This document shows, piece after piece, positions 25,696 through 32,921 of a stretch of DNA of 32,921 nucleotides. Below the pieces are notes generated by a model, which saw nothing but the letters and a program-made list of their open reading frames with translations, did not search any database and had not been told where the DNA came from. Source of the stretch: Phocaeicola sp. (lineage in GTDB: Bacteria; Bacteroidota; Bacteroidia; Bacteroidales; Bacteroidaceae); the NCBI GenBank assembly GCA_022764505.1, contig JALEQJ010000065.1, forward strand, positions 1 to 32,921. The letters run 5' to 3'. Both the position numbers and the translations under genes were made by a program. Every line of letters begins with the position of its first letter. The first letter of the stretch is position 1.

Positions 25696-25735
25696 CGAAA
25701 AGCTGTATCAAAAACGGATTTTGACACAGCTTTCG
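25696..25735 (-). terminator. Terminator of the tRNA-Asn cluster
   Basis: On the minus strand CGAAAGCTGTGTCAAAA pairs with TTTTGATACAGCTTT plus CG over about 16 bp, including one G-T wobble, around a short loop (TCCGT). It starts immediately after the last tRNA-Asn (25736). The T-rich sequence TTTTCGTTTATAT follows. Confidence 0.75.
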
Positions 25736-25809
25736 CTCTTCAGGTTGGACTTGAACCAACGACCCTCTGATTAACAGTCAGATGCTCTAACCGACTGAGC
25801 TACTGAAGA
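25736..25809 (-). tRNA. tRNA-Asn (GTT), copy nearest the terminator
   Basis: 74 bases on the minus strand. Acceptor strands TCTTCAG and CTGAAGA pair fully, the discriminator is G, and no CCA is encoded. The anticodon loop CTGTTAA gives GTT. The D-arm (GCTCAGTCGGTTAGAGC) and T-arm (GGTTCAAGTCC) are normal. Identical to the two copies at 25829 and 25926. Confidence 0.96.
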
Positions 25810-25828
25810 AAGTATTTCTTTGGTTTTG

Positions 25829-25902
25829 CTCTTCAGGTTGGACTTGAACCAACGACCCTCTGATTAACAGTCAGATGCTCTAACCGACTGAGCTACTGAA
25901 GA
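25829..25902 (-). tRNA. tRNA-Asn (GTT), middle copy
   Basis: Identical in all 74 bases to the copies on either side, with anticodon loop CTGTTAA. It is separated from them by 19 and 23 bases with no promoter between, so the three are read as one precursor. Confidence 0.96.
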
Positions 25903-25925
25903 GTGATAGCATTTGCAAAAGGAAG

Positions 25926-25999
25926 CTCTTCAGGTTGGACTTGAACCAACGACCCTCTGATTAACAGTCAGATGCTCTAACCGACTGAGCTACTGAAGA
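25926..25999 (-). tRNA. tRNA-Asn (GTT), copy nearest the promoter
   Basis: Identical to the other two copies. It is first to be transcribed, about 22 bases downstream of the -7 box at 26029-26022. Confidence 0.96.
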
Positions 26000-28857: not shown

Positions 28858-29294
28858 TTCTTTCATTATACCTTTTCCTAAATCTATGTAGCTGGTGTGT
28901 AAGTTCCATAAATGTATCTTCTTTTTGCTTTAATCTCAAAGGTACGAAGACAGGAGCTCATACACTTTTTTCATACAATATTCAGAGAAGCTCCTTTATC
29001 GCTTCTCCGACATCAATTGACTACAGTAAGAGAACTATTGGAGATAAAACAGTACATTTGTGTTATGAAGTTACGAGAATAGTGTAATTTATTGGAAATG
29101 AGCGTAGGTTAATCGCTCTTGATAGTAATAGGTTACGATTTAGTTAGTTATCTACTGCATTATCCTTCTGCGCTTTGCGTAACCTTCAAAGAACTCTTTA
29201 CTGCAAAGATAAGACTAAAATCGGAATTATAGGATAAGTTTTTCATATATTTTCTCGATTAATGCACTTGTATTTTAGATTTAATATCTCGTGA
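28858..29294. other. 437 bases without a recognisable gene, with structured segments
   Basis: No coding frame is convincing. Three inverted repeats stand out: GAGAAGC/GCTTCTC (28985-28991 with 29001-29007), GAGCG/CGCTC (29099-29103 with 29114-29118), and GGTTACG/CGTAACC (29131-29137 with 29178-29184). A minus-strand TATCTTFG-like -7 box reading TATCTTTG lies at 29211-29204 and points leftward into them. A further TACCTTTG is at 28944-28937. A small RNA read on the minus strand is possible. The stretch also marks the border between the core genes and the vsr operon. Confidence 0.4.
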
Positions 29295-29714
29295 TTATTG
29301 TTGTTTGATATCTTCCAGTAACTTATTAAGTATTTTTATCCTATTATCAATCTTACTAATTTCACATTGCCATATAATTATAACTTTCCAGCCGAGTTTT
29401 ACAAGTAAATCGGAATTTTTATCATCACGTGATTTGTTGTTTGATATTTTTTCCTTCCAAAAATCTATATTTGAGGATGGTAATTTCCCCTTTTTACAAT
29501 TATGTCCATGCCAAAAACATCCGTTTATAAATATTACTGTTTTATATTTAGGTAAAACTATATCAGGTTTACCCGGCAATGTTTTGACATTAATACGATA
29601 TCTGAATCCTTTTGAAAATAAAAACTTACGAACTAAAATCTCCGGTTTTGTGTTTTTTCCGCTGATTTTAGACATAATATCCGATCGCTTTTGAGAAGAG
29701 AAAATATCAGACAT
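29295..29714 (-). CDS. vsr: Very short patch repair endonuclease Vsr
   Basis: 139 residues. Vsr nicks DNA beside T:G mismatches that arise when 5-methylcytosine deaminates, and normally travels with a cytosine methyltransferase. Key residues fall at the same numbers as in the E. coli enzyme: Glu25, the metal-binding catalytic Asp51 in GKPDIVLP, and the zinc site Cys66, His71, Cys73 and Cys117. His69 is also kept in NGCFWHGHNC. RSDIMSKISGKNTKPEILVRKFL is the DNA-binding N-terminus. It starts 4 bases after the stop of the receiver-domain gene, so it is the third gene of that operon. No methyltransferase is in view; one may lie beyond the right edge, or Vsr may act here as the nuclease arm of a different system. 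Confidence 0.96.
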   Translation of the reverse strand: MSDIFSSQKRSDIMSKISGKNTKPEILVRKFLFSKGFRYRINVKTLPGKPDIVLPKYKTVIFINGCFWHGHNCKKGKLPSSNIDFWKEKISNNKSRDDKNSDLLVKLGWKVIIIWQCEISKIDNRIKILNKLLEDIKQQ

Positions 29715-29718
29715 TGTG

Positions 29719-31251
29719 TTATTTAGCTTGTAATCTCAACCATTCGGATTCATTTAATCCTACACGGGACAACTGCGCACAATAATTATTCACAATACGT
29801 TGGGCATGCATTTCTTTTAAGTCTACAACCCATTCATATTGTTCTTGATGGATGGAAGTAAATAAATATTTACCATTATCATTCTTTACTGCATATATCG
29901 CCTGTTCATCATTATTTGCTCTGAATTTGATGGTTTTTAGAGCATACGAAGATTCGTTTATTCTAAATTTAGATTCTTTGCTGACTATAATTGAGCAATG
30001 CTCTTCATTTTGTTCTAACGGCAAGAATAAGAATCGTCTTTCTCCTTGTATTCGAACGGAATCACATCTTTGTTGCATACAAATGTAATAAAGATTAGAG
30101 CTAATTCTCTTTATAATTGTACCAAGCGTAAGAATCGGCCTTTTTTGTTGTGGAAGAAATATATTCTTATGATGAGTTAGTTTTGCAAAAGAAATATCGG
30201 AATCTTCTATTTGAATATCTCCATACTGGAAAAGTTGTGACGCAAGTTTAGGAGCCTTTTTCCCTAAACTTATTTTGGTCGCAGAGGCAATTTTGGTATT
30301 TAAATCAGGCGAATCGGCACTAATAATTTGACACAAAATTTCTTGATTGACGGTTAAATTTTTCCCGGCAAGGCTTATAGTCTTTTCCTCTATTCGATTG
30401 TGTATCCAATTCTCAACCCATGTATTTGTATCGATATTTTCGCTTCCAATTAATTCGGCTATCGCATCACCAAATAGTTGCACTAAAAGTTCTTTAGCGT
30501 CATTCGGATTAGGAAGATTGACTCGATGTCCTAAATAAGCCGGATCTAACTTAGGAGAAAAACTGCCTAAGATTTTTGATGTATTATTTCTAATTGTGGT
30601 TATTGCCGATAAAGCAAAGTTGGATAAAAGTCCGTTAGTTAGATTAGTAAACTCCGTCAATATTAACTCCGGAAGTTTATCATATTCTACAATCAATGGC
30701 TTGTATTCCGGTATGTGTTCGAATTTTTTTCCGGCTTTTGCACGGATTATGATACAGACATTTGAAGACTTTATCGTATAATCGTTAACTTTAAATGATT
30801 CCGAATCAATATTGTTTACAATGTCATCCTTAATGTCTGAAATCCTTGTTTCTCCCGTATATACTATGATTAATTTTAACTTATCAGTCCCGGCATCACT
30901 TGTAAGTTGTTTTAGTAATTTTAAAGTAAATTCTCCTCGAGGTTCATCATTATCTGCATCTGCATCAGGATCTAACTGTTGTTCCACGTCTCTTTCAATA
31001 TTTAAATACCAGTCTAAAATAACCACATCAGCTTTTTTCAAAATAACATTGTAGCTATCTATATCCGAAACGGATTTGGGTGCGTATATGGCACAAATTT
31101 TACCTGTTTTTGCAAATGCATTTGATACATCCAACGCACTAAAGGCATTATTGGTGGAGTCTTCTTTATATGCCTTGTCGTCAATAAATACTATATTTTG
31201 TATAAAGTTGTTTGCAATCTCTTTCGATTGTTCGATAAATCTGTCAGCCAT
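29719..31251 (-). CDS. Receiver-domain protein with a large uncharacterised C-terminal region
   Basis: 510 residues from the ATG at 31251. The frame is open further upstream, but that extension lies within the end of the ATPase gene, and this ATG is 4 bases after its stop. Residues about 17-150 look like a response-regulator receiver: acidic pair Asp24/Asp25 in IVFIDDKAY, phosphoacceptor Asp80 at the end of strand 3 (ADVVILDWYL), and a switch Thr132 in LIIVYTGE. The usual lysine after strand 5 is not obvious. An acidic insert (DPDADADNDEPRGEF, 94-108) follows the phosphoacceptor. Residues about 160-510 match no domain I know and contain no DNA-binding helix-turn-helix that I can see. It should receive phosphate from the kinase-like ATPase upstream. 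I recall a family named 'response receiver domain' of this type but could not check it. Confidence 0.8.
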   Translation of the reverse strand: MADRFIEQSKEIANNFIQNIVFIDDKAYKEDSTNNAFSALDVSNAFAKTGKICAIYAPKSVSDIDSYNVILKKADVVILDWYLNIERDVEQQLDPDADADNDEPRGEFTLKLLKQLTSDAGTDKLKLIIVYTGETRISDIKDDIVNNIDSESFKVNDYTIKSSNVCIIIRAKAGKKFEHIPEYKPLIVEYDKLPELILTEFTNLTNGLLSNFALSAITTIRNNTSKILGSFSPKLDPAYLGHRVNLPNPNDAKELLVQLFGDAIAELIGSENIDTNTWVENWIHNRIEEKTISLAGKNLTVNQEILCQIISADSPDLNTKIASATKISLGKKAPKLASQLFQYGDIQIEDSDISFAKLTHHKNIFLPQQKRPILTLGTIIKRISSNLYYICMQQRCDSVRIQGERRFLFLPLEQNEEHCSIIVSKESKFRINESSYALKTIKFRANNDEQAIYAVKNDNGKYLFTSIHQEQYEWVVDLKEMHAQRIVNNYCAQLSRVGLNESEWLRLQAK

Positions 31252-31255
31252 ATTT

Positions 31256-32921
31256 TTATTGCATTTTTTGAATCTTAAAAGTAACCGTAGAACCTTCCTT
31301 AGGTTGTGCCACGAATATATCATAGTTCTCTGCATTCAAAACCTCTTTACTGATACTCAACCCCAATCCTCTTCCATTGGGCTTTCTGGAAAATCTCAAT
31401 TCAAAGATTCGTTCCTTATCTTGGGGCTTTATTTCAATACCGTTATTGGAAATGTATATTCCCGTATCATCCGCATGCAGCCGAATAACTTTTTCAGGAA
31501 CATCACTTTGTTTCAACCAATAAATGGCATTATCAATGATATTAACAAATACAGGATAGAATGTAGAACGAAATCCGTGTATTTTTCGACCTGCAAACCC
31601 GTTAGTATGTTTAAAAGCTATATTGTGTCGTTCAAGGCGAGATTTGAACAAATCTATTAAAAATGTTTTTATATCCAATAAAGAAATGTCTTCTCTACGT
31701 CGATTCAATCGTCGGTTTAACGGGGTAAATAAATTTAAATAGCCATCCAAATGTTCGAAATTTACCTTGATATTTTTGTATATCCCTTCCAATTTGATGT
31801 CTACATCCGACCATGCTTTTAGATCTTTCAGACTATGTCGAATCGAATTAACCGTACCGTTGAACTCATGGTGCAATATCCCGACAGCCAGTCCTAATTG
31901 GCTTAATTCAACGTCCGATTGTAATCGTTCCCGCAATTCCTCCAATTCTTCCGAAGCGGCTTCCGCTATTTGGTCATTTGTAATTATTTGACCGTCTTCG
32001 TTTTTTTCAACATAAAAACTTTCAAATTGTCGAATTATACGTTCCATAACATCCGTATTTCGACTGCTTATGGATTCTATTTCAGCTTCCATTCTCTTGC
32101 GTTCCGTTACCAAATCAAAGTTATCGGCTTTATCGGTTGCTAATAATTTGAATTGATCCTTTACGCTTCGTATTTGATTATCCAAATCGATTATCAGCTC
32201 ATTCGTAAGATCCTTAATTTTACGAGAAACATCGGAAACAACATCATTAGTTTCGCTTTTCTTCTTTTTATTAAGAGACAAAGCCTCGGCTGAAATCAAT
32301 TCCACCGCTTGCTCCAACCGCTTTCGCTTACTTATTTCCAGATTCAGCTGTGCCGTATAATCATCAATTAGTCGATCGATATTTTCATTGATATTTTTAA
32401 ATATCGTTTGTTCCAAAATTTTAAACTCATTAAGGTATGTATCAAAATCTGCTCTCATTGATTTTGACATTGCAAATCCTTTGGGACTTGTTACCGATAT
32501 TCTTTTTTTATAATCGGCAACTTTTTGTCTCATGGCGAATTCCAGATCAATTATCTTCTGGCTTGCTTCATCCGCATCGTTAATGTATAAAACAGAATGT
32601 AAATCGTTCCTAAAATTCGTAAGTAGCCCTTCCAGTTCGTTTTCGAATTTATGTTCCGTTAAACCAGCAAAAAAGATATCGAGCTCACGAGCAAATCTTT
32701 CCTTTTTCGATTTAGCTAATTTATCCCGACGTTCAAGCGCGTTATGGTACGCATTGAACTCGTCTTTCTTCTGATTGAAAAATTCCGATTGTGCCGTTTT
32801 GTTTTTTTCGCTGAAAAAATCAGCGGCAAGTTGTACAAAGAAATTTTTTAAAATCGCTTGAAGTTGGCGATATGCTTTATTTTCAATAAAACCTTCGCGT
32901 CCGGCTTTCTCTACCAAACTG
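31256..32921 (-). CDS. Histidine-kinase-like ATPase, 5' end beyond the window
   Basis: At least 555 residues; the frame is open at the right edge, so the true start is outside. The N-terminal two thirds are long charged helices and probable coiled coils. A dimerisation/phosphoacceptor helix reads GILHHEFNGTVNSIRHSL (about 31843-31884). The GHKL ATP-binding domain follows with N-box FVNIIDNAIYWL (about 31517-31552), a G1-like IYISNNGIEI and G2 NGRGLGLSISKEVL (about 31338-31379). No membrane segment or sensor domain is seen, so it is probably a cytosolic sensor. ATP and DHp motifs together suggest true histidine kinase activity rather than a MutL-type ATPase. The gene ends 4 bases before the receiver-domain protein, its likely partner. 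Confidence 0.85.
   Translation of the reverse strand, partial: SLVEKAGREGFIENKAYRQLQAILKNFFVQLAADFFSEKNKTAQSEFFNQKKDEFNAYHNALERRDKLAKSKKERFARELDIFFAGLTEHKFENELEGLLTNFRNDLHSVLYINDADEASQKIIDLEFAMRQKVADYKKRISVTSPKGFAMSKSMRADFDTYLNEFKILEQTIFKNINENIDRLIDDYTAQLNLEISKRKRLEQAVELISAEALSLNKKKKSETNDVVSDVSRKIKDLTNELIIDLDNQIRSVKDQFKLLATDKADNFDLVTERKRMEAEIESISSRNTDVMERIIRQFESFYVEKNEDGQIITNDQIAEAASEELEELRERLQSDVELSQLGLAVGILHHEFNGTVNSIRHSLKDLKAWSDVDIKLEGIYKNIKVNFEHLDGYLNLFTPLNRRLNRRREDISLLDIKTFLIDLFKSRLERHNIAFKHTNGFAGRKIHGFRSTFYPVFVNIIDNAIYWLKQSDVPEKVIRLHADDTGIYISNNGIEIKPQDKERIFELRFSRKPNGRGLGLSISKEVLNAENYDIFVAQPKEGSTVTFKIQKMQ

Follow-up and report, generated by a model that had tools for sequence, protein, structure and literature searches.

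Organization of the locus

The window analyzed here is a 32,921 nt stretch from Phocaeicola sp. (assembly GCA_022764505.1, contig JALEQJ010000065.1), which is contig C26 in a 70-contig assembly and ends in a HEF_HK/Response_reg_2 signaling pair followed by a Vsr endonuclease gene. As described in the initial annotation, three minus-strand open reading frames, encoding a kinase fragment, a receiver protein and Vsr, close the contig and are separated by 4 bases each; the reading frames and domain calls are upheld by Pfam and, for Vsr, by NCBIfam. The features of the locus are listed below in window positions.

29050..29230, no strand: non-coding stretch resembling a mobile element end (blastn boundary and recurrence in relatives)
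29295..29714, minus strand: Vsr mismatch endonuclease, 139 residues (PF03852, TIGR00632, PDB 1cw0 alignment, residue check)
29719..31251, minus strand: receiver protein, 510 residues, with a Response_reg_2 receiver, a helical middle and a conserved C-terminal domain
29758..30144, minus strand: C-terminal domain of the receiver protein (residues ~370-498), predicted MazF/CcdB-type fold
31012..31014, minus strand: codon of phosphoacceptor Asp80 (codon checked; invariant in 78 of 78 aligned rows)
31256..32921, minus strand: C-terminal 554 residues of the kinase (HATPase_c_3 - HEF_HK - HATPase_c architecture), cut by the contig end
31268..31558, minus strand: C-terminal HATPase_c domain, G1 box SNNG (Pfam and kinase alignment)
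31700..31900, minus strand: HEF_HK dimerisation/phosphoacceptor domain (conserved His codon at 31868-31870, checked)

The Pfam domains over cut-off are HEF_HK and HATPase_c in the kinase, Response_reg_2 in the receiver, and Vsr. In particular, HEF_HK scores 93.5 bits against a Pfam cut-off of 24.1, and Response_reg_2 in the adjoining gene scores 88.5 bits against a cut-off of 27. HEF_HK kinases (PF19191) beside Response_reg_2 receivers (PF19192) were defined from sequence analysis by Bellieny-Rabelo et al. in 2021, apparently without identification of the output (PMC8011034), and the window locus is a new, truncated copy of the system that they described. The kinase is truncated because the contig stops at 32921; its missing part was not found elsewhere in the source assembly. 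The Vsr protein, the only one in that assembly, matches PF03852 (E 6e-35) and TIGR00632 (146 bits, cut-off 97.85), and aligns to PDB 1cw0 at E 1e-28, with I/N at positions 63/64. The catalytic and zinc residues initially read from its sequence are all present: E25, D51, H69 and D97, together with C66, H71, C73 and C117, which we take to be the zinc ligands.

The complete cassette and its mobile-looking context

A contig of Hallella seregens (locus L006) matches window positions 29057-32919 at 98.5% DNA identity (blastn) and carries the cassette in full. Its gene order is an XRE-type regulator, a C5 methylase, a 990-residue kinase, the receiver and Vsr; genes for a relaxase and a tyrosine integrase lie close by. 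The G+C content is 35.5% in the cassette versus 59.0% in the sampled Hallella flank, which points to lateral transfer. The homology between the window and the Hallella cassette ends at ~29057, at the edge of a ~150 bp non-coding stretch (29050-29230) that recurs in relatives at 73-97% identity; the integrase gene in L006 begins ~300 bp past this stretch. Comparing loci L091 and L092, the two in which the reading frames around the repeat were read, one side of the stretch is common and the other side is different. The repeat is probably the end of a mobile element family. Overall, the edge repeat, the G+C contrast, and the integrase and relaxase near the L006 copy are in line with the earlier suggestion of an accessory insertion; the DNA looks mobile. 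The spread is patchy, with HEF_HK in 5 of 61 genomes of the genus and Response_reg_2 over cut-off in 9 of 392 genomes of the phylum.

Several further observations concern the carriers of these elements. Within the genus, the ~150 bp repeat is found at multiple genomic sites (L091, L092, L093). In the set L034, L054 and L055, the cassette on two contigs filed as 'viral' in IMG/VR has the same surroundings as in a Phocaeicola plasmid record, so that these contigs may be plasmids rather than viruses. A search of phage records at E 0.001 returned no receiver relatives. On a Pseudomonas syringae plasmid (L033:7001-10922), a kinase and a receiver, decayed and spread over several frames, flank an IS5 transposase gene.

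Architecture and conservation of the kinase

The full-length L006 kinase consists of HATPase_c_3, HEF_HK and HATPase_c. The initial annotation had contrasted the window kinase with MORC/MutL-like ATPases of restriction-type clusters, a contrast that does not survive the comparison with L006: the HATPase_c_3 domain is absent from the window fragment at the contig end and stands ahead of the HEF_HK part in the 98.5% identical copy. The apparent lack of a MORC-like part results from truncation, and the description of a kinase without one was rejected as an artefact. The HEF_HK histidine is kept in 21 of 21 aligned kinases, and the N-terminal ATPase boxes are present in all 20 that are full length (18 surveyed kinases together with those of L032 and L035).

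The intact N-terminal boxes, the looping model proposed for paraMORCs (PMC2292703) and the degenerate G1 box in 13 of the 21 C-terminal ATPases would all suit a paraMORC/MutL-like DNA-looping engine of restriction whose kinase and receiver parts were mainly structural. Such a role would have no need of the His, nor of Asp80 and the other receiver residues (78 of 78 rows), which are strictly kept, and we regard it as improbable. Judging from the sequence motifs, ATPase activity may be shifting to the N-terminal ATPase, whose boxes stay intact.

Shorter kinase relatives with HATPase_c_3 and HATPase_c occur on Enterobacter and Campylobacter plasmids (L032:6980-10202 and L035:1-3205), where they adjoin a protein that weakly matches Response_reg, below cut-off. 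The receiver-like protein of L032 has the C-D motif in its tail and lacks Cys at the first Cys position.

Neighbouring genes across loci

The neighbourhood was surveyed in 20 loci with both kinase flanks (L006, L029-L031, L036-L046, L052-L056), all but two of which (L052, L053) are complete past the receiver. These loci are not independent: the kinases of L006, L052, L053, L054 and L055 share ~98% identity, and identity between L054 and L055 reaches 99.94%. The counts exclude the window and L034; L007 and L008, which share an assembly with L052 (L008 and L052 end in identical DNA); L009 and L033, as truncated or decayed; and L032 and L035, as lacking PF19191/PF19192. The plasmid search matched 123 records, of which 7 were fetched (H1-H3, H6-H9) and three were used.

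A C5 methylase lies beside the kinase or receiver in all 20 loci: in 19 it immediately precedes the kinase, and in L030 it comes right after the receiver. The kinase-receiver pair is thus tied to DNA modification, as first proposed. The methylase to be looked for beyond position 32921, also raised at that stage, is present in L006 and the flanked loci, but no C5 methylase was found in the source assembly itself; the gene would lie past the contig end.

Vsr, in contrast, is optional. It is present in 6 of the 18 loci complete past the receiver (L006, L030, L037, L044, L054, L055) and occupies three different positions; in L044 it precedes the methylase, and in L030 it follows it. An HNH_2 gene follows the receiver in L041 and L044 (the latter has Vsr too), and another lies two genes away on the opposite strand in L046. 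In L038 there are AAA-type genes, with a Vsr ~5 kb away on the other strand. Downstream of the L036 receiver (L036:1770-8068) are a second C5 methylase, an AAA gene, a RhuM gene and a DUF2357/PDDEXK_7 gene. In 8 of the 18 loci, no nuclease was recognized directly after the receiver, as judged from Pfam scans of chosen neighbours, record annotation (L029, L031) and the look of other reading frames. In a sample of the phylum, Vsr is found in 112 of 384 genomes; five of these are among the nine receiver-positive genomes of the separate draw of 392, two of them with Vsr adjoining the receiver.

These counts bear on the proposal in the initial annotation that Vsr is a nuclease switched on by the phosphorelay against foreign DNA. 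In the window and in L006, Vsr does come directly after the receiver, 4 bases away, this order is the commonest Vsr arrangement in the 2021 study (PMC8011034), and one receiver-Vsr fused protein (P0019) was found among the 120 listed of 576 matches. But P0019 has a single member sequence, in which the two genes may be truly fused or may only seem so through a sequencing or assembly error where they meet; HNH_2 genes take the same place in L041 and L044, and Vsr is common without a receiver. Because it is present in a third of the cassettes, in three positions, and widely in the phylum, Vsr is separable from the pair, and a gated Vsr was rejected as the leading reading; we consider it quite unlikely. 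Most likely, Vsr is the methylase's repair partner.

In L036, the AAA protein matches the PADLOC model PDC-M26A, and the cluster is McrBC-like by our own label.

The C-terminal domain of the receiver

Beyond its receiver domain, the protein contains a conserved C-terminal domain in which G377, C396-D397 and R496 are invariant in aligned relatives. The rows of one alignment (A4) were cut around the C...C-D pattern, which itself accounts for part of the C-D invariance there; 14 full receivers not cut by pattern share the G, C-D and R. No Pfam model matches the domain, and no DNA-binding domain was recognized anywhere in the receiver, consistent with the earlier remark that no DNA-binding output is seen.

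The initial annotation had suggested predicting the structure of residues 160-510 of the receiver protein. The domain is predicted to have a MazF/CcdB toxin fold, while the sequence-profile comparisons lend this no support. In a structure comparison, 49 toxin rows are among its matches; seven of these (4of1, 5xe3, 7ewi, 7ewj, 1ne8, 7bye, 5xe2) are not titled MazF, Kid or CcdB and are presumably toxins. Searched with Foldseek, the whole receiver gave nothing below E 0.001 in PDB or viral models, and its profile found no relative at E 1 among PDB sequences. The domain as a MazF/CcdB sequence homologue was rejected after a negative hhalign comparison, given below with the other points against the fold.

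A search for C-terminal domains that stand alone or are fused otherwise brought up 101 proteins, many from short contigs and likely fragments. PADLOC 2.0.0 returned 0 families for the window kinase part and receiver, and the same was true of the kinase from L006 and the receiver from L029; the methylase and Vsr, in contrast, have matching PADLOC models.

Divergence and breakage of the receiver

The receiver is the variable part of an otherwise constant cassette. Between L006 and L054, protein identity is 96.6% for the methylase, 98.2% for the kinase and 92.1% for Vsr, and 58.1% for the receiver, whose first 60 residues are 90% and whose end is 87% identical, with blocks of 35-67% between them. 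The window receiver shows the same picture against L054. Further, among 10 proteins compared, two metagenomic receivers are mosaics relative to the receivers at window:29719-31251 and L054:6001-7539: P0006 is L054-like to ~residue 240 and P0009 to ~residue 420, and both are window-like beyond. A constant kinase with two receiver types and mosaics between them indicates that one kinase type serves both and that the alleles mix. Such divergence suits a component that faces targets or inhibitors.

The receiver is also the gene that breaks. In three loci, it is broken while the methylase and kinase are full length: the L037 receiver has an in-frame stop; the L053 receiver becomes divergent around residue 440 and stops prematurely, with the same open frame at both contig ends; and the L055 receiver has a one-base indel, the sole gap when 12.7 kb are aligned with L054. 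Among the 20 surveyed loci, no breakage was seen in a methylase or kinase; a stop in the L037 methylase alignment lies ahead of the ATG of its open frame. Outside the 20, kinase and receiver are both damaged in L009. Receiver-only breakage fits a costly output, with three cases being few.

The authors of the 2021 study speculated that the pair is a regulatory two-component system controlling the expression or activity of restriction-modification genes (PMC8011034). The linkage to such genes is in print there, and the methylase that adjoins every surveyed pair is in keeping with it. Yet a regulator is not expected to be the fastest-changing part of a cassette, the receiver has no recognized DNA-binding domain, the L006 cassette has an XRE regulator of its own, and 8 of 18 cassettes offer no recognized nuclease directly after the receiver. 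Regulation of this kind appears unlikely.

Proposed function of the cassette

Our preferred reading, to which we assign a probability of roughly 45%, is that the window holds the truncated end of a mobile, restriction-linked signaling cassette in which the receiver's C-terminal domain is the kinase-triggered output and Vsr serves repair. It builds on the parts of the cassette, their order in relatives, the conserved phosphotransfer residues, the signs of lateral transfer and the variable receiver, all of which are directly observed. By analogy only, the kinase would sense DNA state in the cytosol through its N-terminal MORC/MutL-type ATPase and long middle region, responding for example to incoming DNA that is unmethylated or to the methylase being lost. 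The HEF histidine would then be autophosphorylated and its phosphoryl group passed on to Asp80, and this would free or assemble the C-terminal MazF/CcdB-fold domain as an output acting on nucleic acid or a target protein. Vsr, as the methylase's V gene, would not be an output and would repair the T:G mismatches that arise from 5-methylcytosine deamination.

Several results weigh against this reading. The sensing of DNA state by the kinase is itself an analogy. The Asp of the C-terminal G1 box is replaced by Asn in 13 of 21 kinases, the window's included, and kinase activity is therefore not certain. The best fold match has a Z of 8.1, near the level that the tool calls common, and the MazF rows are many entries of one family; Foldseek of the C-terminal part found no PDB match below E 0.001, and hhalign gave probabilities below 1%, with small profiles, against 15 MazF-type sequences (from 30 loci fetched) and against F-plasmid CcdB alone. 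The catalytic Arg and Thr that we take to be those of MazF have no counterpart in the domain's conserved columns. Receiver divergence may come from plain recombination alone, just three receivers are broken, and a sequencing error could explain the indel in L055.

Two related proposals would make the receiver a toxin. According to the first, which we put forward tentatively and consider somewhat unlikely, the receiver is a phosphorylation-gated toxin: its receiver domain would be joined by a helical linker to an effector of MazF/CcdB fold that has a conserved C-D/R site of its own. A MORC-kinase monitoring DNA modification would arm this toxin, and the mixing of alleles would diversify it, as expected of a component of an arms race. 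If true, the cassette would represent two-component abortive infection or modification addiction carried along with restriction-modification genes, with Vsr as a mere repair passenger. According to the second, loss of the methylase would trigger the toxin-like domain, so that the mobile element is retained. The mobile-looking context, the methylase in 20 of 20 flanked loci, the toxin-like fold prediction and the receiver-only breakage are all compatible with such addiction; fold similarity without catalytic residues does not show toxicity, however, and we consider addiction very unlikely.

The conserved toxin-like tail, with its invariant G, C-D and R, sits in the cassette's one diverging and breaking protein. 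This raises the specific question whether faulty DNA modification leads, through a phosphorylated Asp80, to the switching on of a MazF/CcdB-fold effector. If it does, bacterial MORC-type ATPases would be linked to a readable signaling output.

Comparison with known systems

Detocs also joins a kinase and a receiver with an enzymatic output in phage defence, a likeness by description rather than by sequence comparison; its effector is an ATP-cleaving nucleosidase and it has no methylase. The Dcm-Vsr pair of E. coli couples a C5 methylase to Vsr repair with no kinase or receiver.

Bellieny-Rabelo et al. reported linkage of receiver and GHKL genes in 91.6% of 644 regions, an over-representation of restriction-modification genes with C5 methylases upstream of the pair, and HATPase_c_3 in 83.3% of 222 kinases (PMC8011034). 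They found Vsr in 20 genera, mostly directly downstream of the receiver, and named Bacteroides, Prevotella and Hallella. The window has the same two domains in the same order, with Vsr downstream; the C5 methylase upstream and the HATPase_c_3 part that most of their kinases have are seen in the L006 copy, and the window copy is cut by the contig end. Neither output nor effector domains, SH3, MazF or DNA-binding came up in a term search of the main text of PMC8011034, and the C-terminal domain of the receiver thus appears to be undescribed in it. No functional study of the pair was found in searches of an open-access library. As far as searched, the new leads are the toxin-like predicted fold of the receiver tail and the mosaic divergence of the receiver in a constant cassette.

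In the MORC/paraMORC restriction operons of Iyer et al. (2008), an N-terminal GHKL ATPase stands by cytosine methylases and Vsr, as in L006, whereas a term search of the main text yielded neither receiver nor response regulator (PMC2292703). PorX, among the best matches of the receiver, likewise joins a receiver to a large output region other than a usual DNA-binding domain, but PorX carries a PglZ domain with phosphodiesterase activity (PMC12839542), and no such domain was recognized in the window receiver. Elsewhere in the window, three tandem tRNA-Asn genes lie on the minus strand at 25735-25999.

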